A stretch of 64,000 nucleotides of DNA from Lonicera japonica (lineage: Eukaryota > Streptophyta > Magnoliopsida > Dipsacales > Caprifoliaceae): the NCBI GenBank assembly GCA_021464415.1, contig JAKCWG010000101.1, positions 1 to 64,000 of the forward strand. Reading direction: 5' to 3'. The translations under genes and the position numbers were made by a program. Below, piece by piece: positions 3,977 through 23,323 of this stretch. The notes below the pieces were generated by a model, which was not told the origin of the DNA, searched no databases, and saw only the letters and a program-made list of their open reading frames with translations. Numbering within the stretch: the first letter of the stretch is position 1; each line of letters starts with the position of its first letter.

Positions 3977-5501
3977 TGTGACAATCCGCAAATGCGACCC
4001 CAGGGTCTCGATCCCGTTCTTGGGTGTCTGAAACGTCGGAGAGGATTCCGTCGTTCCATTTGCTTCTATTGGTTGATAATTCATATCAAGTGTCCCTATG
4101 TTCTATTTCTAGATACAAGAGGGTTCATTCAGAGTCACCAGTATGTTTTACGAGAAAATGGACAAAATAGTTGTGTAAGAGAAAAGGCTACAAATAATCC
4201 TTTCTTTACACGATTGTCTATGAAACCAGGATTCTATAGGGTTCGGAAACTATGTTACGGATTGGGAAGGTGTTAAGCACCCATTCCGCCCTTTCGGTTT
4301 CTAGTGGTCTTATATGTTTATTTTATGTTGAAAAACTTGGATGCTTTTACTGACAATCTACTAAGTGAAAACCTTAATTTCTGGGGAAAGCGGGGAAAGG
4401 GATAAAAACCTTTGTGTTCCGAGATCCAATGTTTTACTTTGAAAGACGTAAATATAAGTGACAAAAGGTTGTTTTACTTTAGAGAGAGTTTCCCGTTTTT
4501 ATTTCTCAGATAATGACGGTTTTCTCGGGTTTTAACTTCTTTTGGAAAAAGTTCGGATCTTGTATCGGGACTAGTTTAATGTGGACTTAGAACTCTTGAG
4601 GGGAGTTCTACCAAACACATCACAATCTATGAAAGAGATAGGATATACCGGGTTTTTAATTCCTAAGTAAGTTTTACCGGTCTGGGTTTTGAAAACAGGA
4701 TTTTATCCGGACGATAATGTACTTACTCTTCTGGTTTTGCAAATGATTTTATCAGGGTCTTTTGTTTTGAAAACAGTAGACTATTTGTAACTTGGCAATA
4801 AGTTTATTTAAATAAAACGTGGACAAAACAACAGAAGTAAAACAAGTACACAAATATCTAATGTTAAATACTAGAAGAGACTTTCTTTACCTTCCCGACG
4901 AGAATAATAATAAGAAAGAAAATATAATACGGCAGAGAGATCTCCGGCAATAATAATCTTTTCATTCTTCAGATATTTTCGAGAATTCGATTTCAGAGAC
5001 GTGACATGTCAAGTGTCGAGAATAGATTCGATAATTCTTTAGAAATAAGACGATAATCGAGAATGCTTGACAAAAGACTAGAAAATCAGATATAAGCCAA
5101 TAATTCTTCAATCCCAAGTTGCTGTCCTTGAACCCTTGGGGGTGTTGGCCTATTTATAGTGCGGGGGAAGGATTGTCGCGCGACACTTCCCCAGAAAGGG
5201 CATGTGTCGCGCGACAATGTATACCATGTCGCGCGACAAACGGCTGAAGTGATGTTTCTGACATACTGATGTGTCAGAGAGTGGATGGTCTGGTGTCAGA
5301 AGGGTTTGTCGGCGACATAAGGGGGATTGTCACGCGACATACTCCTTTGTCGTACGACAATTCCTCTTAAAAATAGATTTGTTTGGCCAACAAACCCCTT
5401 TGGGGCAGTCTCAGGTGTTCGGGTGGGTCCTGGACTCCAAAAACAGTATTTCTCGAAGGTCGTTAGGGTTCTTGCGGGGGTCACGGATCGGGGTGTCTAC
5501 A
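3977..5501 (-). repeat. Tat-1 3' LTR
   Basis: On the plus strand it runs TGTGACAATCC...GGTGTCTACA, and it is collinear with the LTR at 21798-23323. It contains the Tat-typical block around 4246-4305 (GGGTTCGG...CCGCCCTTTCGG). CpG sites in the distal palindrome group are partly mutated relative to the other LTR. Confidence 0.93.
5150..5359 (-). promoter_or_regulatory. 3' LTR promoter: TATA box plus six palindromic sites
   Basis: A minus-strand TATA box (CTATAAATAG, 5150-5159) is preceded on minus by perfect TGTCGCGCGACA at 5174-5185, 5205-5216 and 5227-5238, then by degenerate sites at 5307-5317 (one base short), 5328-5339 and 5348-5359. Proximal spacings are 31 and 22 bp, about three and two helical turns. 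This copy sits in the 3' LTR; its counterpart in the 5' LTR would drive gag-pol. Confidence 0.75.
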
Positions 5502-5516
5502 GACCCTCTCGACTCA
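5502..5516 (-). other. Tat-1 polypurine tract
   Basis: On the minus strand the 3' LTR is immediately preceded by a purine-rich GAGTCGAGAGGG followed by TC. This is the expected place for plus-strand DNA priming. The Tat-2 copy at 27258-27269 has a nearly identical tract (CGAGAGGG), supporting the call. Confidence 0.6.
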
Positions 5517-5629
5517 AGCTCCTTGCTTGGAAGGAATTGAGGCGACTGGAAGAGACCGTGGTCCATGGTTGCCGCAAGAACTCTAAGGAAGTGTGTATAT
5601 GCAAAAAGTGTTCGTGAATCCCTCTGGAG

Positions 5630-6160
5630 AGGGCTTGTGTTTGGTTTTGCCTCCGGAGAGGGCTTGTGTTACCTCCTTGCCTCTTTCGAGGACTTTCATT
5701 TGCTCCACTTGCCTCAGATGGGAGGACTACCATTTGTTCCACTCGCCTCAGATGGGAGGACTACCACTGCTACACTTTGCCTCTCTGGGAGGGCTTTGTT
5801 CTTCTCGCCTCATGTGGGAGGACTACCATTGCTACACTGTGCCTCTCTGGGAGGGCTTTTGATCTTCTCGCCTCAGGTGGGAGGACTACCATTGCTACAC
5901 TGTGCCTCTCTGGGAGGGCTTTGTTCTTCTCGCCTCATGTGGGAGGACTACCATTGCTACACTTTGCCTCTCTGGGAGGGCTTTGTTTTTCTCGCCTCAT
6001 GTGGGAGGACTACCATTGCTACACTGTGCCTCTCTGGGAGGGCTTTCGATCTGTAGAAAGAAAGAAAGTTGCCTCTGGGAGGGCTTTTTGTGAGTACTTT
6101 TGCCTCTAGCGAGGGCTTGTGCTCGTGATTTGCCTCGAGGAGGGCTTGTGTTGTACTCTG
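5630..6160. repeat. 62-bp tandem repeat in the Tat-1 3' untranslated region
   Basis: Repeat starts (GCCTCTCTGGGAGG) fall at about 5779, 5841, 5904, 5966 and 6028, giving a 62-63-bp period over five good copies, with shorter degenerate GAGGGCTTG/GAGGACTACC units on both sides. Open frames in several phases simply reflect the repeat. Relative to gag-pol this is the 3' UTR next to the polypurine tract. Confidence 0.85.
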
Positions 6161-6169
6161 GTGAATTTG

Positions 6170-6980
6170 GTTGTCTCTCTCTTTTAGACTGCTAGAGTGA
6201 GAGAGAGATATTTCTTGAGAGTAAATAGAGCTTCTCAGAGTTTAAACTTTATCTGGATGTCCGTTTCCCGTATCTTTCTGAAGTTTTTACTCTCATGTTT
6301 TCCTCGAGTGGAGATATTTCTCTCAGAAAGCAGTTTTCGGATTTCTTTCGCTCTTCGCAGAGTGATGATTCGAGATTTTTCAAACCATCTCTTCGATATC
6401 GTGCTGAAAAGAAAATTTGTTTGAAAGTTCAATCTCTGACCTCTGTTCTCTTTTTTAGTTCTTACTTTTGGTGGGCCCACATCGTTTTCTGTTTTTCGAT
6501 GCCCTTATTTCTCCCTCTTTTTGGGAAAGACCTTTCCTGGCCTTCTCTGTTTTTGACCAGGAGTCTTTTTATCCCTTGGTCGTGATCAGGAGCCTTACTC
6601 AGCCAAAACGAAGCCCTGAGCTAGTTTTGGCCTAGCTGTCACTTTTGGTGTGGCTCTCCCTGTCACTCTACTTTTCTGTTTCTCTCGCTCGCTCTGGGCG
6701 CTCATGCGGGTTCTTTCTTTTTTCTATTCTTTCAATTTTTTCTATTCCCGTGTTACTTTGATAGTTTTCTTTTTTGATTCAAAGATGGCTTTTTTGGAGA
6801 TCAGAGATCACTTTAATCACTGTATTTTGTTCTCGCATTTTTCGGAGAGATGGTTTGGAAGTCCATTCCTTGAATTTTCATCATAGGTGTGCGGTACTCA
6901 GAAAGGTTTTCGAAAACTGTTTCTCAGAAGCCTTCCCGTAGGAGAAAAAATGAGACAAAGGTCAAAAAATCAGGGAAGAG
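6170..6980. other. Spacer upstream of antisense gene X, no gene seen
   Basis: Mostly T- and TC-rich sequence with no supported coding region. It separates the 62-bp repeats from the gene X promoter. Short open frames here lack any recognisable motif. Confidence 0.5.
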
Positions 6981-6988
6981 GACCAAAA

Positions 6989-7072
6989 TGTCGCGCTACA
7001 TCTCGGTGGAGAGGTGTTTGTCGCGCGACAATGAGCATGTTTGTCGCGCGACAAACTGGTCCACTATATAAG
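6989..7072 (+). promoter_or_regulatory. Promoter of antisense gene X with three palindromic sites
   Basis: Sites are TGTCGCGCTACA (6989-7000, one mismatch) and perfect TGTCGCGCGACA at 7019-7030 and 7042-7053, followed 12 bp later by TATATAAG (7065-7072). Spacings of 30 and 23 bp mirror the 31 and 22 bp of the LTR promoter. The start codon of gene X is at 7192, about 120 bp downstream, consistent with a transcribed leader. Confidence 0.75.
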
Positions 7073-7191
7073 CCCCTTGATAAGCTCATTCTACCTCATT
7101 CTCTCCTTTCTCTATCTCTTTTTTCTCAAGCGCGGAAGTCCTGCCGCTTTTCTAATTTTTCCGACTTTCTCACTACTCTCTATATACACAG

Positions 7192-10100
7192 ATGGACCCT
7201 GCTCAGCCTGATAGACTGGAGGGTGACCAGGAGGAGGTCACCTTTACCGATGCCCAGGGCGTTCTCAGGTGCAGCCCTCACCATGATGACTGGGCGGACC
7301 TTGACTGGTATGGCGAGGATGGGGTGGACCGCGGTCGGGTGGTGGTCTACCGAGACGTTACCCGGGCTGCTCCAGTCCCGGATGTTCCGTGGCTCTTGAT
7401 GGAGCATGTTTCTCATGAGATTCGTCGACGGTCTCTGGTATGTTTTTCTGAAATTCTTTCTTTTATTCGATTATTTATGTTGTTTCCTGCATGTATTTAA
7501 ACAATTCACGTATTTAGTATGCATGTTTGCCTAGAAATAACGTCCGATTTAGTGACCACATACTTTTACTTGTGATACCCTTTTAGGTTTGGAAAATTAC
7601 ATAATTTACCCTTATAACTCTCACAATTACACCAAAGTACCCTCAGGTTTGGAAAATTAAATAATTTACACCTATAGCCCTATAACTCTCACAATTACAC
7701 CAAAGTACCCTCAGGTTTGGAAAATTAAATAATTTACCCCTATAGCCCTATAACTCTCATAATTACACCAAAGTACCCTTAGGTTTGGAAAATTACATAA
7801 TTTACCCATATAGCCCTATAACTCTCATAATTACACCAAAGTACCCTCAGGTTTTAAAAATTACATAATTTACCCCTACAGCCCTATAACTCTCAGAATT
7901 ACATCAAAGTACCCTCAGGTGTTGAAAATTACATAATTTACCCCTATAGCCCTATAACTCTCATAATTACACCAAAGTACCCTCAGGTTTTGAAAATTAC
8001 ATAATTTACCCTTATAGCCCGATAATTCTCATAATTACACCAAAGTACCCTCAGGTTTTGAAAATTACATAATTTACCCTTATAGCCCTATAACTCTCAT
8101 AATTACACCAAAATACCCTCAAGTTTTGAAAATTACATAATTTACCCTTATAACCCTATAACTCCCAGAATTACACCAAAATACCCTCAAGTTTGGAAGA
8201 TTATATAATTTACCCCTATAGCCCTATAACTCTCATAATTACACCAAAGTACCATCAAGTTTAGAAAATTACATAATTTACCCCTATAGCCATATAACTC
8301 TCATAATTACACCAAAGTACCCTTAGGTTTTGAAAATTACATAATTTACCCCTATAGCCCTATAACTCTCATAATTACACCAAAGTACCCTCAGATTTTG
8401 AAAATTACATAACTTACCCCTATAGCCCTATAATTCTCATAATTACACCAAAGTACCCTCAGGTTTGGAAAATTACATAATTTAACCCTATATCCCTATA
8501 ACTCTCATAATTACACCAAAGTACCCCCAGGTTTGGAAAATTATATAATTTACCCTTATAGCCCTATAACTCTCATAATTAGACCAAAGTACCCTCAGGT
8601 TTTGAAAATTACATAATTTACCCCTATAGCCCTATAACTCTCATAATTACACCAAAGTACCCTTAGGTTTTGAAAATTACATAATTTACCCCTATAGCCC
8701 TATAACTCTCATAATTACACCAAAGTACCCTCAAATTTTGAAAATTACATAACTTACCCCTATAGCTCTATAATTCTCATAATTACACCAACGTACCCTT
8801 AGGTTTTGAAAATTACATAATTTACCCTTATAGCCCTATAACTCTCATAATTACACCAAAATACCCTCAGGTTTGGAAAATTCTATAATTTACCCCTATA
8901 GCCCTATAACTCTCATAATTACAACAAAGTACCCTCAGGTTGGAAAATTACATTATTTATCCTTATAACCCTATAACTCTCATAATTACACAAAAATATC
9001 CTCAGGTTTGGAAAATTCTATAATTTACCCCTATAGCCCATAACTCTCATAATTACACCAAAGTAACCTTAGGTTTGGAAAATTACATAATTTACCCCTA
9101 TAGCCCATAACTCTCATAATTACACCAAAGTAACCTCAGGTTTTGAAAATTACATAATTTACCCCTATAGCCCTATAACTCTTATAATTGCACCAAAGTA
9201 CCCTCAAGTTTTGAAAATTACATAATTTACCCTTATAGCCCTATAACTCTCATAATTACACCAAAGTACCCTCATGTTTTGAAAATTGCATAATTTACCC
9301 TTATAGCCCTATAACTCTCATAATTACACCAAAATACCCTCAGGTTTGGAAAATTATATAATTTACCCCTATAGCCCTATAACTCTCATAATTACCCCAA
9401 AGTACCCTCATGTTTTGAAAATTACATAATTTACCCTTATAGCCCTATGACTCTCATAATTACACCAAAATACCCTCAAGTTTGGAAAATTACATAATTT
9501 ACCCCTATAGCCCTATAACTCTCATAATTACACCAAAGTACCCCCAGGTTTTGAAAATTACATAATTTACCCTTATAGCCCTATAACTCTCATAATTACA
9601 CCAAAGTACCCTCAGGTTTCTCATATTTATATTTTCGTTTTGTTTGCAGTTGGTCGGCCGAGGTTGGGGTTCTCCTAACACTATTTCCTTCGAGTGGCGA
9701 CAGGCACCGACCCCTGTCCAAGATTTGCTCCTAGCGACTCCATTTTGTCCTCTTTTTGATGCCCTCCCGGAGCGGGTATCTAGGGCGGCTGTGTTGGTGT
9801 CAGCTCTGGCCTGCCACTGGTGGGACACCACTCATACCTTCTAGTGGAGCTGGGGGGAGATGACGATGATCCCCTCGACTTATTTTCTTTGACCGAGATT
9901 CCTTCAGGGGGTCCCTATACAGATTGATGTCCCCTTGCGTCTGACGGCAGAAGGCATTGTTGGTGCACTTGGATGGTTCCCGGAGCGACGGAGTTCTGGT
10001 GATACGATCCCTCGGACGATTTTGGTTACTCGCCTGGCTACAAAGAGAGCCCGGCTAGTTGCTTCCGGGGTGCCGATGACCCTACAGGAGGCACGCTAGT

Positions 10101-12235
10101 ATGCCTATGTCCTTCTCTTGCTAACGCTTCACGATTTGTTCGAGGCCCGTAAGGGGGATACAACCCATCTTTGGTGGCTGCCTTATCTTCGTGATTTCAG
10201 CATTATGTTCGTTTACGACTGGGGTGGCTTTATATGATGCTATGGACCAGGTTTCTCGCTACTTAGCCCTGAACCTCAAGGGCTTTTCTTTGCTGTGGGA
10301 GGTATATATTTCTCGTCCCTTATCTGTGTTTTCGGTCTTTGCATTTTATCTGCTGATTGTTTTTAATGTTCTTTATATCTTCTTTTCAGAGTTGGTTCGT
10401 GGCTTATACCGTCTGGGTCGTGCCCAGGTGGATTTCCTCGTTGAGAACGAGGATCAGTTTCCCCTTCTTCGCCGATTTATTGCGGAAAACTACAGGGCTC
10501 CTTATGTATACCGGACTCGGGAGACCGGAGCTGCTGCCGTCCATGACCTGCTGGAGGAGCAGGTAAATATCTTAGTATTCTTTCTTTTCAAATAAATAAA
10601 TAGTAAAATAAAATATAAATAACTGAAATAAAATTTTGTTCTCTTTTTAGATTGAGTGGGCCCCTTGGGGTGATCTGGGTCTCCATTTTGGATACGGCCG
10701 TGCTCTGACCGCCTCGAGGACCAGGCGACTTATCAGAGATGAGTATGGCCTTCACTTCTATTTGGGTGAGAGGGTTGTTCGCCAACATACACCGGCCCAG
10801 TGGCCATGAGTTCCTTTGTTTCTGTCGATTCTTATGAGGCGGACGGGTGAGATTGACCCGATCACGGTGCAGGCGTTGGTCGATGGGTTCGGTTTTTAGA
10901 CGTTCACCAAGGAGGGAGATTATGTTGTCTTCGCTGCCCGTTACTTGATGAGGGAGCCGAAGGAGACTCGAGAACGGGTCTTCTACGAGAGATACCGGGC
11001 ATTGGGAGGCGATTCCAACTATATACGAGGTCAGACCCATTTGTCCAGGATGGTCCCCGGTCATCTACCGCCTGTCCCTGATCAGAGGGACAATATTCTT
11101 GACTCTGATGATGATGACCCTGAGGGTGAGAGGGGTGTACCTGCTGATACTGAGGGAGGTGATGGTGGGCCTGAGGGCGGTGATGACAAACCCGAGGGCG
11201 GTGAGGGAGGTGGGACAGCGGCGGTTCCTGAGTAGTCGCCTCAGACGACACCCATGGAGGAGTAGCGCGCTGAGGGTTTTAAGTTTCTGTCGGTATCTCC
11301 AGGGGTCATTTTTGATGCTGCTGAGGCTGCTGAGAGAGGGGGAGCAGCTTTGTCTGAGCAGTCCTGGGAGATTGAGGACTTCGGGGCCGATTATGAGCAG
11401 TTTGGGCGAACCCCTCCTGCTGCAGCGACCCCTCCTTCTAGCGGGGTCCCGCCTTTGAGAGCGACGGCCGTTGTGGATCCTCCGGGCGTCCGTACTTATG
11501 CTACTCTGACTCCGCTTCCGTCGACTGTTATGGGCCTTCCGGCTCGTTCTCCATGTCTCGGGGGTTCTTCTTCCTGGCCTCCCCTATTCTTGATTCGTGA
11601 GGAGGGTGGGTCCACTTCTGCGATGGTACCAGCAGGTCCATCTGTTCCTCTAATTGACATCCCACCCCTTCCTCGGGATATTACCTACGTTGGTGCCGGT
11701 CTTTGTCGCTATATCGTGCCCGAGTATCCTTTACCCGAGGATACTTTTGATTATCTGGGCGACCGCGTGGGTGACGAGGTATGTCCCTTCTTTTATGTAT
11801 TCTGTCGTTCTTTTATATCTGTTTATCTTAAAAGTGTGCTAATTCCCTCTCTTATGTCTTTTGCAGCGGGTGAGTGTTTGTGCAGCAGATCTGAGAGCTC
11901 TCCACGCCCAGTACCTCTATAACTGGAACCTCTTCCAGTTCGTTGGTTGAGACCCCACGGCATACATGCGCGATTACCAGAGGGCGATCGACGTATCTCT
12001 TCGGGTGGACAACCCTCTGTCCTCTTCTCGCGCTCGATCAGAGTCTCGGAGGAGCAATAGCCGGACTTCTAGGCGTTCACGATCCTCGGTGATTTGCCCT
12101 ACAGCTCCGGTTCAGTCGATTGGGCCTTCTCAGGCAGCAGTTCCTTCTCATCCGAATGTCCCAGTGATCGATCCTACTCCGGAGGAGGGTTCGGGTGACA
12201 GTGGGAGCGTGTCGAAGCGTGCCCGGATAGATTAG
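7192..12235 (+). pseudogene. Antisense gene X: five-exon plant-mobile-domain-like gene, broken
   Basis: Proposed exons are 7192-7437, 9650-10301, 10390-10562, 10651-11778 and 11867-12235; every intron has GT-AG ends, and exon 1 joins exon 2 in phase 0. Exon 1 begins MDPAQPDRLEG and is acidic. Exon 2 resembles the plant mobile domain (PMD): a block ending ACHWWDTTHTF, then WGEMTMIP in the same frame after a TAG at 9842-9844. Exon 4 has an acidic Gly/Asp/Glu-rich tract (about 11090-11230). Exon 5 ends in an Arg/Ser-rich, basic tail (VSKRARID). Further stops near 9889, 10097 and 11948 disable it. PMD proteins occur in plant transposons and in the heterochromatin-silencing MAIN/MAIL family; extra antisense ORFs are known in Tat elements. 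A nuclear regulatory role is inference. Confidence 0.68.
7560..9622. repeat. 68-bp minisatellite, about 30 copies, inside intron 1 of gene X
   Basis: A unit containing CACCAAAGTACCCTCAGG, AAAATTACATAATTTACC and TATAGCCCTATAACTCTCA repeats with a 67-68-bp period (for example starts at 9251 and 9319). It fills almost the whole intron between donor 7438 and acceptor 9649. Copies differ by scattered substitutions and small indels. There are no unique spacers, so it is not a CRISPR array. Confidence 0.95.
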
Positions 12236-12560
12236 CTTTTCTTTTTTGTATTTAGTTAGTTCAAACAGATACGTATTTATTTTTATACATTTAGATAGAG
12301 ATTTTAGTTTTGATAAATTGTTCTTTTATTGAATTTATGAAAAATCTTTATTTGTGCTAGTGATGTATATTTATTCCTTATCTGTGAAAGATATATTTAT
12401 ATGAATCAGTGATTTAGGTGCCATACCTTGTAGCGTGGTTGTACTTAGGGTTCCTGCAAAAGAACATAGTGAGAACAAGAATGCATTAAGAAGTAATTTT
12501 TTTGGCAAAAATGACTCCTATATGTGAGAAAGGCAAAAATAGGGATACAGGAAAGAGGAT
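12236..12560. other. Intergenic spacer between antisense genes X and Y
   Basis: An AT-rich 325-bp gap holds the likely 3' end of gene X and the upstream region of gene Y. No coding sequence is supported. Confidence 0.5.
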
Positions 12561-12638
12561 TGTCGCGCGACAATCCCTCCTGGATATGGGTTTGTCGCGC
12601 GACAAACAGGTACATGACCCTCTTTTTTGCTATAAATA
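12561..12638 (+). promoter_or_regulatory. Promoter of antisense gene Y with two palindromic sites
   Basis: Perfect TGTCGCGCGACA sites lie at 12561-12572 and 12593-12604 (32 bp apart), both extended to the 14-mer TTGTCGCGCGACAA. TATAAATA follows at 12631-12638. The first ATG downstream is at 12677, 39 bp after the TATA box, so the transcribed leader would be very short. Confidence 0.78.
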
Positions 12639-12676
12639 CACCCCTCTGCCTTCCTTCATCCCCACACCTTCTCAAA

Positions 12677-13933
12677 ATGTCTTTTTATCGTACAAATTAT
12701 GACTTTTCTTATGTTGAAGACCGAGATGCTTTGATAACATCTGAGAATGGCTTGAACTTTGGTGCATTTAGTCCTTTGGCAGGTTGGTGCCATCGTCCTG
12801 TAGATTTTTCCTTTTTGTTAGGCGCTTTGTATTTTTGGAGCCCTGCGGATCATCTTTTCCGTTTTGGGCTAGATGAGCTCTGCCCTACTTATGAGGAGTT
12901 TTCCTGGCTGTTGCGTTCTGATATTTGTCTCCAGATGGCTGTTCCCATAGAAGAGATCGGTCCTCGAGATATGCTGATTGCTCTGTTAGCCATTCCCCAA
13001 GTGGCTTGTGATGGTTTCATTATCGACGGGCTTCTTGATCTCCACAAAATGGTGAGGTTTTTCCATCGTTATAAGGATAGAGCTTCTTATAGCATGGGAC
13101 GTACTGTGGCGGCCTTGATCTGTCTTGTTTCTGATATGCTATTGGTGACAGGCTCTTCCCGTGTCGATCCGACTATCCTGAGTTTGATTTATCATGCTAG
13201 GAATGGGGAGTCCATAGTGCCTATCGTTCTTGCAGAGACTCTGAATGGCCTAGATGATCTCCAAAGGGGAGCCTCACCCTTCTTCAAGGGAAGCCCTCGT
13301 TTGCTATATATGTGGCTATTGGAGCGTTTCCGATCGGTGGGTTTCAACGGGGTTCGTCTTGACAACCCGACGCACTTTTTTTGTCATCCCCTCTTTAGTG
13401 CCTTGACCATGTCTTCCTCTGATTGGACGGTGTGATTTTTGGAGAATTATCGGGCTATTCGGTGGAATATTTCTTGGTGGAAGCTGAGGGCGATGGTGCT
13501 TAGTACCGGAGGGCAGAATTACGTTCGGCTCCGTGGGCTATGGTTTACTTATTTTTATCTCCCAGAATGTCTTCTTCGGCAGTTCAATGTTTCTCAGGAT
13601 ATTCCCCTCGGCCTGAACAACTTCTCTTCCGAGTCTGAGTTCGTGACCCAGCATGTTTCTTTATCAGTGGAGAGAATGTGGCGTGCTCGACTGAGTCGTC
13701 AGTTCAACTATGCCCGTTTTGGTATTTCCAGGCCCCTCTGGGCTGACATCATCCGTTCTCGTTGGGGGTCTCTGGAATGGGAGCTAATTGATGATCCCTT
13801 CCACATGGAGTGGTTTCGATTTATGAATTCTGAGCCCACAGAGGAGAGTATCATCTTTGCGTACCAAATCCTGGATGAGGCTCGAATTGACTTGGCCACT
13901 GAGGACCCTGCTTGGCCGACCCCTAGGGATTAG
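12677..13933 (+). pseudogene. Antisense gene Y: DUF7745/plant-mobile-like protein, one internal stop
   Basis: The start at 12677 (MSFYRTNYDF) is chosen because it is the first ATG after the TATA box. The frame runs 418 codons with one TGA at 13433-13435; sequence similarity to the family style continues on both sides. Visible blocks are LCPTYEEFSWLL (about 12882-12917), ALLAIPQ, a hydrophobic helix ALICLVSDMLLV (about 13114-13149), IVPIVLAETLNGLDDL, then LLYMWLLERF, and downstream W-rich segments (WWKLRAM, MEWFRF). This pattern recalls plant proteins annotated DUF7745 or 'aminotransferase-like, plant mobile domain', common near Tat/Ogre elements. Biochemical function is unknown. The gene ends about 220 bp from the convergent end of integrase. 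The premature TGA probably makes it inactive here. Confidence 0.66.
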
Positions 13934-14154
13934 GTTTTTTTGTATGCTGTATCTCCTTTGTAACTTTCGGTGTTCTGAACCACCTTAATAATATACGAGG
14001 GACTTGTTTTTTTGGGAAATAAATTTCTTTACAATGTTTAAACCGGGCCTGAAGTCACTTCTCAAGTTGCCTACGTTCCCCTTTTGATTTTTCATAAAAT
14101 ACAATTTTGAGTTGGGGCTCAGGTTTACGTAGTTCTTATCTATACATGTTACAT

Positions 14155-15290
14155 CTATTGGTAATACTTCTTCAATCGATCCATGTTGACTGGTGAATGC
14201 AGTAATTGTCCATCTAAGTCAGTGAGTATGGCGGCACCCCCTGTATCGATCTCTTTAACGATGTATGGCCCCGTCCACTTCTGCCCAAACTTTCCCCTTG
14301 GGTCCTTGGCTGGCTCTCGAATTTCTTTCAACACGATGTCGTTCTCATTAAGATCCTGAGTTTTTACTTTCTGGTTAAATGCCCGAGCAATTCTCTTCTG
14401 ATACCCTTGGTGGTGGTACGCGGCTCTCAGTCTCTTCTCATCTAGCAAGGCCGGCTCGTTATAACGTGCCTGGACCCACTCCAGCTCATTAACTTGATTC
14501 TCTAACATTACTCTGAGGGAGGGAACCTCTAATTCAATAAGAAGGACTGCTTCCATCCCGTATGTAAGGGAAAATGGGGTTGCCCCGATGGAGAGCCTCT
14601 TGGTGGTGCGGTATTCCCATAATGCATATGGTAATTTTTTCGGCCAGTCACGACAGGTGTCGGTCATCTTGCTTAGGATGTTCTTCAGATTCTTGTTGGC
14701 GGCCTCAACTGCCCCATTGGTTTGCGGTCTATATGGCGAAGATCTGTGTCAGGTAATACCATATTCCTCTATGACTGTATTATCATCTCCTTCAAAGTGA
14801 GTGCCGTTGTCCGAGATGATCTCGTGTGGGATCCCATACCGGCAGATGATATTCCGTCTGATGAATCGGGCAACTTTTCTGGCGTCAAGGGTTTGGAAAG
14901 ACTCGGCATCTACCCATTTGGTAAAGTAATCGATGGCCACTAGTATAAATTCATGGCCGTTGCTGGCTTTAGGCGAAATTTTTCCAATGATGTCGATTCC
15001 CCAGGTTGCGAAAGGACAAGGGGCCGTCATGTTGTACAATTCTTTTGAAGGAAGCTTCTGAGATTTAACGTAGATTTGACACTTGTGACAACGGCGTACG
15101 TGGTTAACACAGTCGTTCTGCAAGGTAGACCACTAATAACCTTGTCTTATGATTTTGTGGGCAAGTGTATAACCGCTCATATGGGGTCCACAATCGCCCC
15201 CATGTATCTGATCCATCACTTTGGCAGATTCTTCTTCAGTGAGACATTAGAGATGGGTCCCGTCGTAATTCCTCTTATATAACCTTCCGG
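14155..15290 (-). pseudogene. Tat-1 integrase, broken
   Basis: The minus strand carries the zinc-binding end (HVRRCHKCQIY, about 15090), then the catalytic core with WGIDIIGKI (first Asp) and IISDNGTHFEGDD (second Asp), in a segment ending with a stop at 14749. A second segment, 14155-14667, holds the core C-terminus (LPYALWEYRTT) and a C-terminal domain with GQKWTGPYIVKEI. Integrase inserts the DNA copy into the genome. At least one stop and a frame change separate the halves. It is the last minus-strand domain, and its end faces gene Y. Confidence 0.85.
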
Positions 15291-15381
15291 TACAAAGTAT
15301 GAACCTTAATGCTAATCTCCTGAGTGTGACTCGCGTTCTTTTGTTTGTTTGCTCGGGATACTGATGATTTTTCAACAGGTT

Positions 15382-16020
15382 CTAGATGTCATAAAACCAA
15401 GTGGTTGAGTCCCCATTTTTTTCATTTTCTACCTCAAGGGCCATACAGTGTGCTGGTCTTGATCTTCTTTGTACGGTAAGAGTTATTTCTTCCATCCCCT
15501 CCGGGATATCGATCATAGATGCCAGGGTTGCTAGTGCGTTAGCAAAACTGTTTTGTGACCTAGGGACATAGTAAAACTCCGAACGCTCAAATCTTTCGAC
15601 GACATCTTCTAGTCGGGCAAGGTAAGGGACTAACTTTTCATCTCTGATCTTCCATTCCTTCCGAACTTGGTGGACCACTAATGCTGAATCTCCGTACACT
15701 TGTATTCTCCTTATACCCTTTTGGCGTACGATCTCTAATCCGATTATACAGGCTTCATACTCAGCCATGTTGTTGGTGCAGAAGAAGTCCAGACGATATG
15801 ATACTGGGGAATGAGTTTGGTCTGGAGAGACTAACAGGATGCCTATTCCGTTCCCATTTCGGTTGGCGACCCCATCAAAGTATAATTTCCAGTCTTCATC
15901 GATCTCAACATTCATGATAGTTTCATCTGGGAATTCGACTTCTTCTAACATGTCCTCCAATATCGGATTGTGGGCTAGGTAGTCAGCTATGATCTTGCCT
16001 TTGACTGCCTTCTGGGTCAT
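15382..16020 (-). pseudogene. Tat-1 second (archaeal-type) RNase H
   Basis: A 212-codon frame has WKLYFDGVANRNGNGIGILL near its N-terminal third, then NNMAEYEACIIGLE, and VYGDSALVVHQVRKEW, the acidic residues of an RNase H fold. It lies between the normal RT-RNase H and the integrase. Such a second RNase H in this position is characteristic of Tat/Ogre-lineage retrotransposons and supports the lineage assignment. The frame itself is open, but its neighbours are not. Confidence 0.88.
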
Positions 16021-16053
16021 GTAGGTGATGTCAAATTCAGAGAGTAAAAATAA

Positions 16054-17190
16054 TCACTTTGCCATACGGTTCAAGAGAGCTGGTTTCTCGAAGAGGTATT
16101 TTAGTGGATCAATTCGTGATGCCAAAATGACCGAAAAAGCTAACATGTAATGCCGTAGTTTCTGTGTTACCCAGACGAGAGCGGTGCATGATTTTTCCAA
16201 TGACATGTAGTTTATCTCAAATGAGGACAGCTTCTTGTTAATGTAATAGATGGCCTGCTCTTTTCGTGTATCGGTCAGATGTTGGGCTAGCATGGCCCCT
16301 GCAGCCGAATCGATGACGGTTAGGTACAAAATTAGTGGCAGCCCGGTCTGTGGTGGGGCTAATACCGGGGGTTTGGAGAGGTAGTCTTTGATTATATCAA
16401 AAGCTTCTTGGCACTGATCGTCCCATTCTCCTGGTGAAGATTTCCTTAAGAGTTTGAAGATAGGTTCGCAAGTCTGAGTTAGCTGAGAGATGAACCTACT
16501 GATGTACTGTAAATTACCCAAAAATTCCCGGACTTCTTTCTCAGTGCGAGGCTCGGGCATTTCTCGAATAGCTCGAACCTTGTCAAGGTCGACCTCGATT
16601 CTTTTTTTCCTGATGACACAGCCTAGGAGTTTTCCCTTGGTTACCCTGAATACACATTTTTGCGGATTGAGTCTCATCTGGTACTGGCGGAGTCAGTCAA
16701 AAAAGGCTCGTAAGGCTGGTACATGGCCTTCCGTCTCCTTTGACTTGATTATCATATCGTCCACATATACTTCTACTTCTTTATGGATCATGTCGTGAAA
16801 AATAGCCGTAGCTTCCCTCTAATATGTTGCCCCGGCATTCTTCAGCCCGAATGGCATAACGGTGTAGCAATATGTTTCCCATGGCGTGATAAATGCCATT
16901 TTCTCTTGGTGATCTGGGTGCATCTTGATTTGATTATACCCGACAAAATCGTCCATGAACGACCTCAAGGCATGGTTGGCGGTATTATCTACTATCAAAT
17001 CAATGTTGGGTAATGGGAAATCATCTTTTGAGCAAGCTTTATTGAAATCTCGGTAATCTACACACATGCGAACCTTCCCATTTGCCATTGGAACGGGCAC
17101 AATGTTGGCTAACCATGAAGGGTATTCGATCACCCGCAAGAACCCCACACTCAGTTGTTTCATCACTTCTTTTTTTACTTTCAAAGACCA
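16054..17190 (-). pseudogene. Tat-1 reverse transcriptase and first RNase H, broken
   Basis: Minus-strand order: VKMCVDYRDFN-like fingers (here KVRMCVDYRDFNKAC, about 17050-17090), YTVMPFGLKNAGATY (about 16826-16870), catalytic YVDDMIIKS (about 16747-16773), thumb LGNLQYISRFI, then the RNase H segment YYINKKLSSFEINYMSLEK. A stop lies at 16819 and the YVDD piece is in an interrupted frame, so the copy is inactive. The enzyme makes cDNA from the element RNA. Confidence 0.88.
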
Positions 17191-17340
17191 TTATGGCGTG
17201 AACTTCCTTAATTTCTACTTGACGGGTCTAAACTCTGGCTTGGTGTGTATCTCGTGCATGACTATCTGGCTATTCAAACCTGACATATCAGTATAGGACC
17301 AGGCAAAGACATCCACGTACTCATTCAGAGTTTGTGTGAA

Positions 17341-18303
17341 TTACTCTCTTTCTGTCTCACTTAGACTTGCCCCAATACGGACCTCTTTCCTTTCCTCTTC
17401 TGTCCCGAGGTTAATCACAAGAGTATTTCCCTCCTCGTTTTGTATGCGCTGTTCCTCCCGTTCAGGGTGTTCATTTAATCTTTCTATTTCCATATAAGCA
17501 ATTACATAATCAAAATTAACAGGATACCGCAAAATAGAGTCTTCTTTATTAATAACAGTGCTTACAGGTATAAGTTTGAAAAGTAAATCTAGGAGAGACT
17601 CCTCCTTAGTCCTACCCTCGCTCTTATCTCTAACCCTTACAATTTCACTCTTTCCCCATTTTTCCTGGTAATCTAGATCAGCGTGTATTAAGTGTACGGG
17701 GTCGTCCCTTGGCTCATGATCCCCTAGAGCCATGACATCGAAGAGATCTCCGATCATTTCTTCCTTTTCATCATCCTTGTCTTCATTTTCTTTTCTCGGC
17801 CCGATCGTCAATTTGGTAGAGAAGCTGTGCAAAATATTTTCCTTGAGATAAAGGTGCTCTTCATAGAAGATTTCCCATCTTGGAAGGTTATCTCCATCGC
17901 TGTTTCTCCAAGGCTCCTGGAAGCCGCAAAAAGGGAAGTCCTCTCCTTCTTTGACAAAAAATTCGTTAAGGGAGCTAAAACTCGGATACTAATGTCTTCG
18001 ACCCCTTTTCTCTTGCTTGTCTTCTTCGGTGTGTTGGTACCCCAACCCTTCTCTTTCATGCCTCATTACTGGTTCTAAGGCCTGCAGTAATCCTAGCTGC
18101 CCCATTCTCAGACTGGCTCCAGGTAAGTATTTCATCATTCTCAGCATATTTGTGATCTTGGTGCTGAGACCGGGGATATTATTAGGGGGAAGATACTCGA
18201 TTCTCTGGGTGGTGAGGGCTTGCACTTGAGGCTCGTAAAAAAAGCCTCCCAGTTGTATACTTTGACTCCCGATGCCCAAGACATGTAATTCTAAATCCGC
18301 CAA
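17341..18303 (-). pseudogene. Tat-1 linker between protease and RT
   Basis: Two minus-strand frames (17341-17832 and 17989-18303) are rich in charged residues, mainly E, D, K and R, and show no catalytic motif. Tat/Ogre elements have a long region here that in some Ogres contains an intron; I did not find a clear intron. Confidence 0.5.
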
Positions 18304-18332
18304 GGTCCTTGAAGGATCTCCTTGGATGGTGA

Positions 18333-18767
18333 TTATCTTCCCTTCAATGGTATTTTGATCTTCTGGTGTAGGGAGGAGGGGAGTGCTCCTATGTCATGTA
18401 GACATGCTCTTCCCAACAGGAGGTTGAAACTAGAGGGGATGTTTATGATTTGAATGTTGGCTGGGAAATTTCTAGGACCAACAATGAGATCGAGCTTTAG
18501 AAAGCCCAGAACGGCCCTTCTAGTGTTGTCATAGGCCCTGACAATTACAGCTGATGGAGAAAGCTCTGAATCTAAGATACCCAGACATCTAGCGGTCTTT
18601 AAAGGGCATACATTTATGGTTGACCCGTTGTCAATGAGGACTTGTGGCAAAAAAATTTCTCGGGTCCGAACAGTAATATGGAGGGCCAGACTGTGTTTCT
18701 TCCCTAGTGGAGACAAGTCTTTATCTGAAAATGACAGACTTCTTTGGACTGTAAGCGACCCAATCAT
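18333..18767 (-). pseudogene. Tat-1 aspartic protease
   Basis: The frame contains VLIDNGSTINVCPL (active-site Asp, about 18605-18650) and SFNLLLGRACLHDIGALPSSLHQK, both typical of Tat proteases. DNGS in place of DTGS is common in this lineage. The protease cuts Gag-Pol. The frame starts at a plausible Met, but in the full element it would be read as part of the polyprotein; upstream frame 18777-19094 is the Pro/Ser-rich gag-protease linker. Confidence 0.82.
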
Positions 18768-19387
18768 GTTTGGCAGTTATTCTGGCGTGGAGTCTGGTGA
18801 TATAACGACCTCATCTAGGAGTTTGATGAAGGCGGTCCTGTGAGGTTTGGAGGCAACCAGGAGACCCCAAATGGTGATGTGTGCCTGGGTTTTCTTCAAC
18901 TGTTCCAATACTCGATCCTCTCCTATTTCCTTAAGAGGTGGTGATTTCTCGGTATCCATTGGTGGTGGCTGATATACCCTCCCTGAATGGGTAATTTGCT
19001 GTATCCAAAGGGAGGCTGGGTCTGATCCCTCTGAGGTTTCTGGTGATTCTGGTTCTGCCGACCAACTAAAAGTCTTGGAGGAGGTCTCTGTCATATAGAT
19101 TGTCTCCTTCAGAAGGCCTCGGGATTTCCATGGTTGTTTCTTCTTGTCCTGGGTCCATCATATCCTAGATTTTCCGGGATTGGTTTTGATTGCAAGTGGT
19201 TGTGAAATTCCCTGATTGGCATTTCCTAAACCCTGTCTGGGTAGGAAATTCATCTTAGCCATCCATTGGTAAATTATTGGATTGAGACCTGGTGCAACTT
19301 GAGCCCTTTCTGGCGGTACAACGGGTGACTTGTAGGCTGGGTCATCTCGAATGAGTCATACGGGATCAAACCCTTCTTCATCGGTGG

Positions 19388-20488
19388 TCAAGGTGTTAAT
19401 TCCCACAGGTGGAGCATGGTTGGGAAAGGGTTATTAGTAACATTGGGCCCTCCGGGTGCGGGAATGGTACCAGCCTCGATTAGGTCTTGTATACGATGGT
19501 GGAGATCCAAACAGCGTTCCGTGTCATGGCCCGCGGCTTGATGGTATGCACAATTCTCATTCATTCTCCAAGTGCTGGGAATAAGGTTTGGTGAGGGGCG
19601 TGGGTTGAGCAGAGTGATTAGTCTGGCCTTTCGGAGTAGTTCTAGACTTTTGACCAAGGTAGTGGGAAGGGTGTAGAAGTTCCTCCTTTTCTTGACCTCG
19701 GTGCTTGAAGAGTCTCCTTGTGCGGGCCAACTCATCGGAGGTGCTTGTTGTGGCTGTTGAAATGGGTTTTGTTAATATGGGTATGAGCTTATTTGGTTCA
19801 CAGCTAGAGTGGCCGTTTTTCTCCTAGTGTATGAGGCTTTCTTGGTATCGGTCTCTGCCTTCTTGGCCAACTCTTCTTCTACTTGTGATCCCATGCTTAA
19901 CAGGGCTCTGAAGTGTGGGAATACATGCTTTCCCATGCAACTCAATACGGCTGGAGTGAAATTCTTCTGTATGATCTCCAGCTGTTCTTCTTCATCGGGC
20001 TGTTTGGACATTTGGGAGGCCATTTCTCTCCACCGGGTGACAAAGTCGCTAAAGCTTTCCTTCTCGCCTTGCTTGGCCATTTCTAGGTGTTTGCGGGTAA
20101 TTTCCAAATCCTCGTTGGACCCGTATTTGGTCATGAACTATTTGACAATATCTCCCCAAGTCTTTGTATGGTGTCTCTCCAAATCAAAAAACCATCTCAG
20201 GGCGGTCCCCGTGAGAGTCATGTGAAAAGCTTGAGCCAACTCCGGCTCTCCACAACCGGACACTTGCATGGATCTGATGTAGGATTGAAGATGGGTTTTA
20301 GGGGGTGTGGTCCCTGTGAATTTGGTGATGGAAGGGAGCTTGAACCCCTGGGGTAATCTTGCTTCTGGGTAGAGGGAGAAGGCATTCATATCTGTAATTT
20401 CGTCTGGTCCTTTTATTAGAGAAATCCCCCTTTGTAGAACCTTCATCTGCTCTTTCAGTTTCTTCATTTCTTCACTTTCTCTTGACAC
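19388..20488 (-). pseudogene. Tat-1 gag, broken
   Basis: The upstream part (20138-20488) has a short coiled coil (MSRESEEMKKLKEQMK) and the retrotransposon-gag start through WFFDLE. A stop at 20135-20137 is followed in the same style by SFSDFVTRWREMASQM (about 20030-20075). The C-terminal part (19388-19735) has CAYHQAAGHDTERCLDLHHRIQDLI, the Tat-type histidine/cysteine motif. Gag forms the virus-like particle. An N-terminal piece without a clear domain lies at 20909-21136. Confidence 0.83.
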
Positions 20489-21778
20489 CTCGTCAGGCTG
20501 TTCCCGAGCTATAACCGATTCTGCATATACTGCCCAGAGTCAGTTGATGTATAGGTACTCATTAGCAGGGGCTACCTGAGCCGGGGGTGGAATAGGCCTT
20601 GGGGAAACTTGTGGCCATGGTTGGTACTGAAGCCCAAAACCTTGTTGGGGTTGGGGCCAAACGATGGGTGGCTTTTGTTGTTGATAGGTGGGGCTTGAAT
20701 TTAGGGCCCATTGATTCTGATTGTTGGGATCGGTCTGAACGGGACCGGCTATGATGGGGCCCGTTTGGGGTGGATTGGTTCCTTGGACTGGGGGAAGTAC
20801 TTATGATGACTACCCTTGATTCTGATCTCGATTCGGTGGTAGTCGTTCAAAGCCCGGTGGTGCGGTTCATTCGGCTGACAACTCTTCTACTCGAACTCGA
20901 GTACTCTGTTACTCGGTTGTGAGACTTGCTAGATTCTTGCTGACGGTCATAAGTAGACGATGCATTTCGACTAAGGTTGGCGGGACAGCTGATGCCTCGG
21001 CTAGGCTCTGATCCATTTCTTGATTCTCACGTCCGTTAGTCATTACGAATATGCTTGGTCTCACTAATCTTCCGGTATGATCTCGACCAGCCCAACCTTC
21101 CAGACTGTCGTTGTTCACGGCTGTAGATGAAACCACGTGGCGAAGATGAAGGAAGACTATGATGCGACTCGATTTTTGCCAAAAGAACCACTAAAGATCG
21201 CCGAGAAAAGACTCGGGTTTTAAAAAGGTGTTGTAAAGTAAGACGTAAGGTGGTACATCCCCTACGGCTGTTTGACAAGTGTTTTAGCTGACTCAATCTT
21301 ATATGCAGCGTATGTGTGTGAACGGTTAAGGCTTCAGGCTCCCTCCTATTTGGCAAGACCTCGCGATATACCCCAGGGGCGGGTAGGTGCAAGAGCCTTT
21401 TGATATACTTCCCGGGTACGTGAGTGTTCTTGTCACTCGATATACCTCGGGGGCGTACTTGGCCAAGGAGAGTGGAAGTAAATGCTTTTGGTTTATGTTG
21501 GCCCAAGCAAGCCAACTCCCTACTCACTTATAATACTTTCGAGGGTTTGGGGGCAAATTCACACTCGTAGAACCAATGCATGATTTGTGAAAGTGCATGC
21601 AAATTTCGAAATATTGGTTTCACAAATATCATTATCTTTATTACGTTTTTTTTGAAAACTTTCTATTTTTGGAAAAATGTTTATTCTCAATCAATTAACA
21701 TAAGTAGGGAAAGCAGTAAAAGCAAGTATTCAATAAATAAACAAAAAGTCCACATATAAGAGTCTAGTTTTCTACTAT
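20489..21778 (-). other. Tat-1 leader and gag N-terminal region
   Basis: This covers the untranslated leader after the PBS and a Pro/Gly/Gln-rich gag N-terminal segment around 20520-20880. A frame at 20909-21136 may hold the gag start, but its ATG cannot be fixed. A 163-codon open frame at 21036-21527 has no recognisable domain. Confidence 0.45.
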
Positions 21779-21796
21779 TCCCCAGCAGAGTCGCCA
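21779..21796 (-). other. Tat-1 primer binding site
   Basis: The minus strand reads TGGCGACTCTGCTGGGGA one base downstream of the 5' LTR. From memory it matches the 3' end of plant tRNA-Arg(ACG) at about 16 of 18 positions; tRNA-Arg is the known primer of Ogre-type elements. It fixes the orientation of Tat-1. Confidence 0.82.
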
Positions 21797-21797
21797 A

Positions 21798-23323
21798 TGT
21801 GAGAATCCGCAAATGCGACCCCAGGGTCTCGATCCCGTTCTTGGGCGACTGAAACATCGGAGAGGATTCCGTCGTTCCATTTGCTTCTATTGGTTGATAA
21901 TTCATATCAAGTGTCCCTATGTTCTATTTTTAGATGCAAGAAGGTTCGTTCAGAGTCGCCAGTAATTTTTACGAGAAAACGGACAAAACAGTTGTGTAAG
22001 AGAAAAGGCTACAGATAAGCCTTTCTTTACACGTTTGTATACGAAACTAGGATTCTATAGGGTTCGAAAACTATGTTACGGATTGGGAAGGTGTTAAGCA
22101 CCCATTCCGCCCTTTCGGTCTCTAGTGGTCTTATATGTTTATTTTATATTGAAAAACTTGGATGCTTTTACTGACAGTCTATTAAGTGAAAACCCTAATT
22201 TCTGGGGAAAGCGGGGAAAGGGATAAAAATCTTTGTGTTCCGAGATCCAATGTTTTACTTTGAAAGACGTAAATATAAGTGACAAAAGGTTGTTTTACTT
22301 TAGAGAGAGTTTCCCGTTTTTATTTCTCAAATAATGACAGTTTTCTCGGGTTTTAACTTCTTTTGGAAAAAGTTCGGATCTTGTATCGGGACTAGTTTAA
22401 TGTGGACTTAGAACTTTTGAGGGGAGTTCTACCAAACACATCACAATCTATGAAAGAGATAGGATATACCGGGTTTTTAATTCCTACGTAAGTTTTACCG
22501 GTCCGGGTTTTGAAAACAGGATTTTATCCGGACGATAATGTACTTACTCTTTTGGTTTTGCAAATAATTTTATCAGGGTCTTTTGTTTTGAAAACAGTAG
22601 ACTATTTGTAACTTGGCAATTAGTTTATTCAAATAAAACGTGGACAAAACAACAGAAGTAAAACAAGTACACAAATATCTAATGTTAAATACTAGAAGAG
22701 ACTTTCTTTACCTTCCCGACGAGAATAATAATAAGAAAGAAAATATAATACGGCAGATAGATCTTCGGCGATAATAATCTTTTCCTTTTTCAGATATTTT
22801 TGAGAATTCAATCCCAGAGATGGGACACGTCGAGTGTCGAGAATAGATTCGATAATTCTTCAGGAATAAGACGATAATCGAGAATGCTTGACGAAAGACT
22901 AGAAAATCAGATATAAGCCAATAATTCTTCAATCCCAAGTTGCTATCCTTGAACCCTTGGGGGTGTTGACCTATTTATAGTGTGGGGGAAGGATTGTCGC
23001 GCGACACTTCCCCAGAAAGGGCATGTGTCGCGCGACAATGTGTACCATGTCGCGCGACAAACGGCTGAAGTGATGTTTCTGATAGACTGACGTGTCAGAG
23101 AGTGGATGGTCTGGTGTCAGAAGGGTTTGTCGCGTGACACAAGGGGGATTGTCGCGCGACATACTCCTTTGTCGTGCGACAATTTCTCTTAAAAATAGGT
23201 TTGTTTGGCCAACAAACCCCTTCGGGGCAGTCTCAGGTGTTCGGGTGGGTCCTGGACTCCAAAAACAATACTTCTCGAAGGTCGTTAGGGTTCTTGCGGG
23301 GGTCACAGATCGGGGTGTCTACA
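21798..23323 (-). repeat. Tat-1 5' LTR
   Basis: On plus it runs TGTGAGAATCC...GGTGTCTACA, 1526 bp, collinear with 3977-5501, and it is flanked on the outside by CATAT (23324-23328). The palindrome cluster is better preserved here than in the 3' LTR. Confidence 0.93.
22971..23181 (-). promoter_or_regulatory. Tat-1 gag-pol promoter: TATA box plus six palindromic sites
   Basis: TATA CTATAAATAG on minus (22971-22980). Perfect TGTCGCGCGACA lies at 22995-23006, 23026-23037, 23048-23059 and 23150-23161; one-mismatch sites at 23128-23139 (TGTCGCGTGACA) and 23170-23181 (TGTCGTGCGACA). Spacings are 31, 22, 80, 22 and 20 bp. The two imperfect sites differ by single C/T or G/A-type changes at CpG positions. 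Confidence 0.8.

Follow-up and report, generated by a model that had tools for sequence, protein, structure and literature searches.

A 12-bp palindrome, a probable cis-element, in the LTR and antisense-gene promoters of a Tat-type retrotransposon family of Lonicera japonica

VANDALs are DNA transposons of the Mutator-like element (MULE) type. In Arabidopsis, the targets of their VANC proteins have been described as a short motif repeated in the non-coding regions of the element itself, where it is dense, and rare in other elements (PMC5735166). Closer to the present case are the retrotransposons Grande and Retand, in which accessory genes lie antisense to gag-pol between pol and the 3′ long terminal repeat (LTR): gene23 of Grande is provided with a promoter of its own, and its product is nuclear (PMC7264820), and TRP28 of Retand was predicted to bind DNA, a regulatory role being proposed for it (PMC11963269). 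The passages cited from these two papers call the function of antisense accessory genes in Tat elements unknown and report no cis-element common to the promoters. Here, 64,000 nt of Lonicera japonica DNA (contig JAKCWG010000101.1, positions 1 to 64,000; referred to as the window) were analyzed. One long LTR retrotransposon was found in the window on the minus strand (3977-23323 as aligned). Two plus-strand genes, X and Y, lie in it antisense to gag-pol, between pol and the left LTR, and the 12-bp palindrome TGTCGCGCGACA was clustered in all three promoters of the element. From the sequence, a probability of roughly 0.8 is given to the reading that this palindrome is a functional cis-element of all three promoters (gag-pol LTR, X and Y). 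While the idea of a regulatory antisense gene has been published, a family-wide site common to three promoters is new relative to the literature searched, in which the palindrome was not described; an exact-string search gave one unrelated paper, on chicken PRMT4.

The perfect palindrome occurred 11 times in the window, all at 5174-23161, and 100 dinucleotide-preserving shuffles of the window contained no perfect copy. With up to two mismatches, 16 matches were obtained against 0.40 expected, all at 5174-23181, and an 11-base remnant at 5307-5317 made the sixth defective site. The window's 12-base palindromes included just two commoner ones, both AT repeats (14 and 12 occurrences); the next one after TGTCGCGCGACA occurred twice. 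The sites and TATA boxes are as follows, the gap being counted from the end of the site to the start of the box:

5174..5359, no strand: left LTR site cluster (5174, 5205 and 5227 perfect; 5307-5317 remnant; 5328 one mismatch; 5348 two mismatches)
22995..23181, no strand: right LTR site cluster (22995, 23026, 23048 and 23150 perfect; 23128 and 23170 one mismatch)
6989..7053, no strand: X promoter sites (6989 one mismatch; 7019 and 7042 perfect), kept in relatives
12561..12604, no strand: Y promoter sites (12561 and 12593, both perfect, 32 bp apart)
5151..5158, minus strand: left LTR TATA box TATAAATA, 15 bp from the nearest site
22972..22979, minus strand: right LTR TATA box TATAAATA of the gag-pol promoter, 15 bp from the nearest site
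7065..7071, plus strand: gene X TATA box TATATAA, 11 bp from the nearest site
12631..12638, plus strand: gene Y TATA box TATAAATA, 26 bp from the nearest site

On reading the sequence, site clusters were found upstream of all three TATA boxes. The original prediction had counted 11 perfect and six defective sites confined to the element, with six in each LTR, three before X and two before Y, and these numbers were borne out by the scan with one or two mismatches, the shuffles, the remnant and the site coordinates; its spacings of 31/22 (LTR), 30/23 (X) and 32 (Y) were exact. Two of its figures needed adjustment: the clusters do precede the TATA boxes, but at 15, 11 and 26 bp (LTR, X and Y) rather than 12-27 bp, and all sites fall inside the span of 5150-23181, although the element itself is wider by LTR alignment. 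When the palindromes were masked, the LTR, X and Y promoters had only matches of 7-12 bases in common.

The assembly from which the window comes (886,079,548 bases, 967 contigs) contained 29,561 perfect copies of TGTCGCGCGACA, and the same palindrome read backwards, which is also a palindrome of equal composition, occurred once. An origin of the sites by chance, or from the composition of a CG-rich element, is refuted by this single reversed copy and by the expectation of zero in the window. Fifty sites, taken as the first by position on contig C1 (0-4.54 Mb) and hence not a random draw from the 29,561, were then assigned by blastn, and all 50 lay within the element family: 36 in LTRs, 11 in the X promoter region (LTR end to exon 1 end) and three in the Y promoter region. 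The genome-wide search that had been proposed as a check therefore showed no equal frequency outside the element in this sample, and a motif that is dense in its own family and rare elsewhere is also the trait described for VANC targets. In the three elements of which all three promoters were viewed (the window, C1:0.56-0.58 Mb and C1:4.19-4.21 Mb), each promoter carried sites, irrespective of intactness. The TATA gaps in the C1 copies were 15 bp for the main LTR box (16 in L008), 11 bp for X (recurring in L007, L012, L013 and L015) and 26-27 bp for Y, and the two bases flanking the 112 distinct perfect sites were mostly A or T. These observations support the palindrome as a trait of the element family and not of a single copy. 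A set of 29,561 perfect sites would be very large for a single factor, and its binder may be titrated genome-wide.

To follow the sites in close relatives, the nearest X loci (L019-L048, n = 30) and Y loci (L049-L078, n = 30) were collected by DNA search, with the window copy in each set and 40 scored of 1918 (X) and 1883 (Y) candidates. The X sites at 6989, 7019 and 7042 were perfect in 19, 20 and 22 of the 30 X loci, and the Y sites in 12 and 18 of the 30 Y loci; 41 of the 59 imperfect X and Y sites were one base off. A Y site pair (up to three mismatches) 32 bp apart was present in 30/30 Y loci, and pairwise identity across the X loci was 0.938 in site columns versus 0.848 in flanks. In 15 pairwise comparisons with farther C1 copies (nine LTR, four X and two Y stretches; L007, L013 and L017 of the 12 C1 LTRs were left out), 764/804 site bases (95%) were identical versus 2064/2647 flank bases (78%), a difference for which Fisher's p of 5e-34 treats bases as independent and is not to be taken at face value. 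Single LTRs gave 67/72 site versus 105/170 flank bases (L008) and 70/72 versus 134/183 (L015). Against the copy at C1:4.19 Mb, 24/24 Y-site and 35/36 X-site bases agreed, the expectation for neutral DNA at a synonymous divergence (dS) of 0.7-0.9 being about 48-53% identity.

The antisense genes were compared over 13 copies of Y and 14 copies of X exon 1 by the ratio of nonsynonymous to synonymous divergence (dN/dS). Between the window Y and its copy at C1:4.196 Mb (L016), dN was 0.069 and dS 0.896 (dN/dS 0.08), and for X exon 1 (82 codons) the copy in the same C1:4.196 Mb element gave dN 0.081 and dS 0.733 (dN/dS 0.11); Y and X exon 1 are thus under strong purifying selection relative to this distant copy. 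X exon 1 gave 0.05-0.11 against four C1 copies and, leaving the C1:4.196 Mb copy aside, 0.05-0.56 against the 13 other copies, and Y gave 0.19-0.37 against the other 12, the higher ratios being expected because dead copies decay. The low dN/dS, together with the identity of the sites at high dS, indicates that genes and sites have been retained together across sub-families. Passive inheritance, in which functionless clusters were merely duplicated between promoters, could draw on the LTR trio (31/22) and X trio (30/23), which both cover 53 bp and have a short flank in common beyond the last site (AAC.GG), hinting at a common origin. It is nevertheless very unlikely, given that the sites persist in a copy with a silent change of 0.7-0.9 per site, that in most comparisons with far copies they changed less fast than their flanks even though CpGs are hypermutable, and that the masked promoters show no longer similarity.

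Another explanation is CG methylation. The three CpGs present in every site would attract readers of methylated CG or factors of silencing, and the clusters would mark silencing or methylation-tolerant promoters and not classical operator sites. Most single changes were CpG transitions, as expected in methylated DNA. The fixed spacing, the fixed TATA distance and the 12-bp identity, however, exceed what CG content would need, and CpGs outside the sites were kept about equally (mean CG fraction 0.89 in nine X-site columns versus 0.81 in five flank columns; 0.82 in the Y sites, which have no flank column for comparison), so nothing singles out methylation, and this explanation is considered unlikely. 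Protection of the site CpGs from decay was dropped as a candidate signal, there being no clear difference between site and flank.

Adjacent sites were 20-23 or 30-32 bp apart in 130 of 134 distinct pairs within 60 bp, the rest being at 34 (two pairs), 42 and 51 bp. This histogram fits two and three helical turns, as in the earlier argument that the sites fall on one DNA face, but the related copies are not independent, and at X and Y the spacings are inherited. In a set of 14 LTRs (two from the window and twelve from C1), the number of sites ranged from four to nine, sites being gained or lost as units. The X promoter of L048 is an example of gain, with four sites (steps of 30, 30 and 23) instead of the usual three. 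An asymmetric variant, TGTCGTGCGACA, was located near the TATA-distal end of the cluster in 9 of the 14 LTRs (for example at 23170 in the window), and it looks inherited, unlike decay. At this TATA-distal end a TATA-like box was also seen in the antisense direction (window 5360-5380); in L005 and L007, the two LTRs in which it is clear, it reads TATAAATA and lies 8 bp from the last site, and in several others it reads TAAAAATA. The box hints at a bidirectional LTR promoter.

The gain and loss of sites between related copies, like the motif repeated within its own element, resembles what is described for VANDAL and VANC (PMC5735166), and the parallel drawn earlier stays an analogy. The VANC21 motif, YAGTATTAY arrayed in one orientation (PMC5735166), is unrelated to the palindrome; unlike in VANDAL, the motif here is confined to three TATA promoters in the copies seen, and its binding protein is only a candidate. 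Nor is the window element of MULE type, as it has LTRs and a reverse transcriptase.

In the mechanism we propose, one sequence-specific DNA-binding regulator would recognise the palindrome and control the gag-pol, X and Y promoters, probably as a symmetric dimer or oligomer on one DNA face. It would act as an activator, because the clusters lie immediately upstream of the TATA boxes. With less assurance, the regulator may be encoded by the element itself, by Y or X, in which case a little accessory protein would turn on its own genes and gag-pol in a feed-forward loop or, in an alternative role, would keep the CG-rich promoters unsilenced. A similar arrangement is known from human T-cell leukaemia virus type 1 (HTLV-1), in which Tax response elements are repeated upstream of the LTR TATA box, the regulator is encoded by the element and an antisense gene lies near the 3′ LTR; Tax works through the host protein CREB, and no homology is claimed. 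As to the shared control of gag-pol and both antisense genes that had been predicted, the same palindrome does stand in all three promoters, family-wide, and a factor encoded by X or Y is a candidate. That an element-encoded regulator (Y or X) binds the palindrome and switches the whole element is a tentative reading, to which we give slightly less than an even chance.

The principal alternative is a host transcription factor that drives all three promoters, its site having been collected by the element; this is a serious contender, held to be somewhat less likely than not. A CGCG-box or E2F-like host factor is conceivable, and the best-defined candidate is an auxin response factor (ARF) dimer, since the TGTC arms of the palindrome, in inverted orientation, fit the ARF half-site TGTCNN. 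Binding of ARFs to TGTCNN has been described, on protein-binding arrays for monomers as well, and TGTC clusters are preferred in DNA affinity purification sequencing. The pairs that ARF dimers prefer, however, are TGTC:GACA 11-12 bp apart (PMC6207667), as against a gap of 4 bp in the palindrome. CpG transitions at folded positions 4/5/6 numbered 6/18/31 over all loci, as if the outer arms mattered more; this gradient was not significant in the X and Y promoters (10/18/22, p 0.11) and weak in the C1 LTRs (9/9/20, p 0.04), and it was dropped as an ARF-like sign on account of the X and Y result. A host factor should also have host promoters, and 50/50 sampled sites were in the element, a sample in which degenerate host sites would be missed. 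The element-encoded regulator is slightly favoured over the host factor because the full 12-bp site was found only in the element family in the sample, because both antisense genes are kept by selection along with the site, because sister elements make antisense proteins that are nuclear (gene23) or carry a prediction of DNA binding (TRP28), with a regulatory role proposed, and because VANC shows that plant elements do such things.

For the candidate proteins, an open Y piece of locus L066 matched the plant mobile domain (PMD, PF10536) at E 2.9e-6; its 27.1 bits, the best for any Y piece, are below the curated cut-off of 34.9. The window Y pieces and one piece of L016 matched the PMD at E 0.07-0.13 only (11.8 and 12.6 bits in the window). 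Y is thus possibly a divergent PMD protein, weakly like the Gypsy-encoded PMD-A and MAIN/MAIL1. The host PMD proteins MAIN and MAIL1 have been described as needed for the expression of genes with a promoter motif (PMC7156037, PMC9899485, PMC5418596). This motif, DOWN, reads CATGCAGTTT in the MORC1 promoter and bears no relation to the palindrome; the passages cited do not settle whether the PMD complex binds it directly. The Pfam scan found no DNA-binding domain in the X or Y pieces, and Transposase_28 (PF04195) was not matched in the pieces scanned, X being scanned in pieces only; residues 1-252 of Y had 0 matches when compared with the sequences of the PDB.

Several results weigh against this account. 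At the sites, pairwise identity in the 30 nearest Y loci was lower in site columns (0.909) than in flanks (0.930), although CpG decay in dead copies would blur such a signal among near relatives, and the L005 LTR was no better conserved in its sites (65/72, 0.90) than in its flanks (185/203, 0.91). The copies share ancestry, L015-L017 being one element and L005-L007 one element by position, so that the pooled counts overstate independent events, and the sites may have been copied long ago from one promoter to another. At the proteins, the PMD match of Y is sub-threshold and comes from one open piece; a 306-aa Y piece of L053 had no PMD listed, and DUF364 at E 0.008 was below its cut-off. The X pieces of the window had no Pfam match at E up to 1, the X piece of a relative gave only DUF6785 (E 0.29), and AlphaFold models of two open Y pieces reached pLDDT values of 32 and 34, with no usable fold.

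A search of the same genome for the PMD family gave 162 matches (117 of 4838 candidates scored), and no sister element with a different motif, as a co-evolution test would need, was found among the PMD loci opened. The two of these that are TE-like, L079 (C1:33.76 Mb) and L080 (C8:59.29 Mb), showed no Tat pol within the 9 kb examined. Beside its PMD, L079 has a GRF zinc-finger frame and, on the opposite strand, a SWIM zinc-finger frame, and is MULE-like; L080 is similar in look. The perfect palindrome was absent from L079, L080 and three stretches upstream of host-like PMD frames (L081-L083), with one two-mismatch match each in L079, L080 and L081.

With a conserved cis-element in all three promoters, the function of the antisense genes becomes a simple binding or reporter question. 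Should the regulator be element-encoded, the palindrome would be the first binding site, and hence the first function, for Tat antisense proteins in the literature searched; should it be a PMD protein, retrotransposon PMDs would be connected with the promoter-motif role suggested for MAIN/MAIL1.

The remaining features of the element are listed below. As the element is on the minus strand, the right LTR is its 5′ LTR.

3977..5501, minus strand: 3′ LTR (blastn versus right LTR, 1526 bases, 95.5%)
21798..23323, minus strand: 5′ LTR, the gag-pol promoter (blastn between LTRs)
19772..20539, minus strand: gag pieces, below the Pfam cut-offs (Gag_p24_C 21.8 bits, cut-off 25.9; Retrotrans_gag 18.4, cut-off 24.1)
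14155..17190, minus strand: pol pieces (Pfam), with reverse transcriptase, RNase H, additional RNase H (RVT_3) and integrase
7192..7437, plus strand: antisense gene X, exon 1, starting MDPAQPDRLEGD at ATG 7192; exon end inferred, 82 codons compared
7471..9739, no strand: 68-bp tandem repeat array in the presumed X intron, without palindrome sites
10125..12235, plus strand: further X coding pieces (open frames) with an acidic stretch and KRARID C-terminus, interrupted in the window copy, exon joins provisional
12677..13933, plus strand: antisense gene Y (open frames), ATG 12677, 418 codons, one in-frame stop in the window copy

The two LTRs were 95.5% identical over 1526 aligned bases by blastn, which at a substitution rate of about 1.3e-8 per site and year corresponds to an insertion age of roughly 2 million years. 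Next after the 5′ LTR on the minus strand, a TGGCGACTC... stretch was read, which we take to resemble a primer-binding site. Among the pol pieces, RVT_1 (41.1 bits), RT_RNaseH_2 (80 bits) and RVT_3 (74.2 bits) scored above the Pfam cut-offs, and the integrase matches were just below them (rve 32.2 bits, cut-off 32.6; rve_3 20.7, cut-off 26.5). RVT_3 (E 1.1e-20) was located at 15385-16053, between the RNase H piece at 16054-16692 and the integrase pieces at 14155-15132. The angiosperm Tat clades Ogre and Retand are marked by an extra RNase H domain (aRH) that follows RNase H and precedes integrase (PMC6317226), and by this predicted order of pol domains the window element is a Tat-type (Ogre/Retand group) Ty3/gypsy LTR retrotransposon. 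Family-specific tandem arrays have been described for Retand elements (PMC11963269), and other copies also had the 68-bp repeats in their X intron. Short tandem repeats with a unit of about 62 bp are present at 5733-6052, in the leader that separates the X promoter from the left LTR. Several other repeated elements occupy 28-63.9 kb of the window, among them a distant gypsy-like pol (about 42.1-44.3 kb) and, near 63.3-63.9 kb, a fragment of pol.

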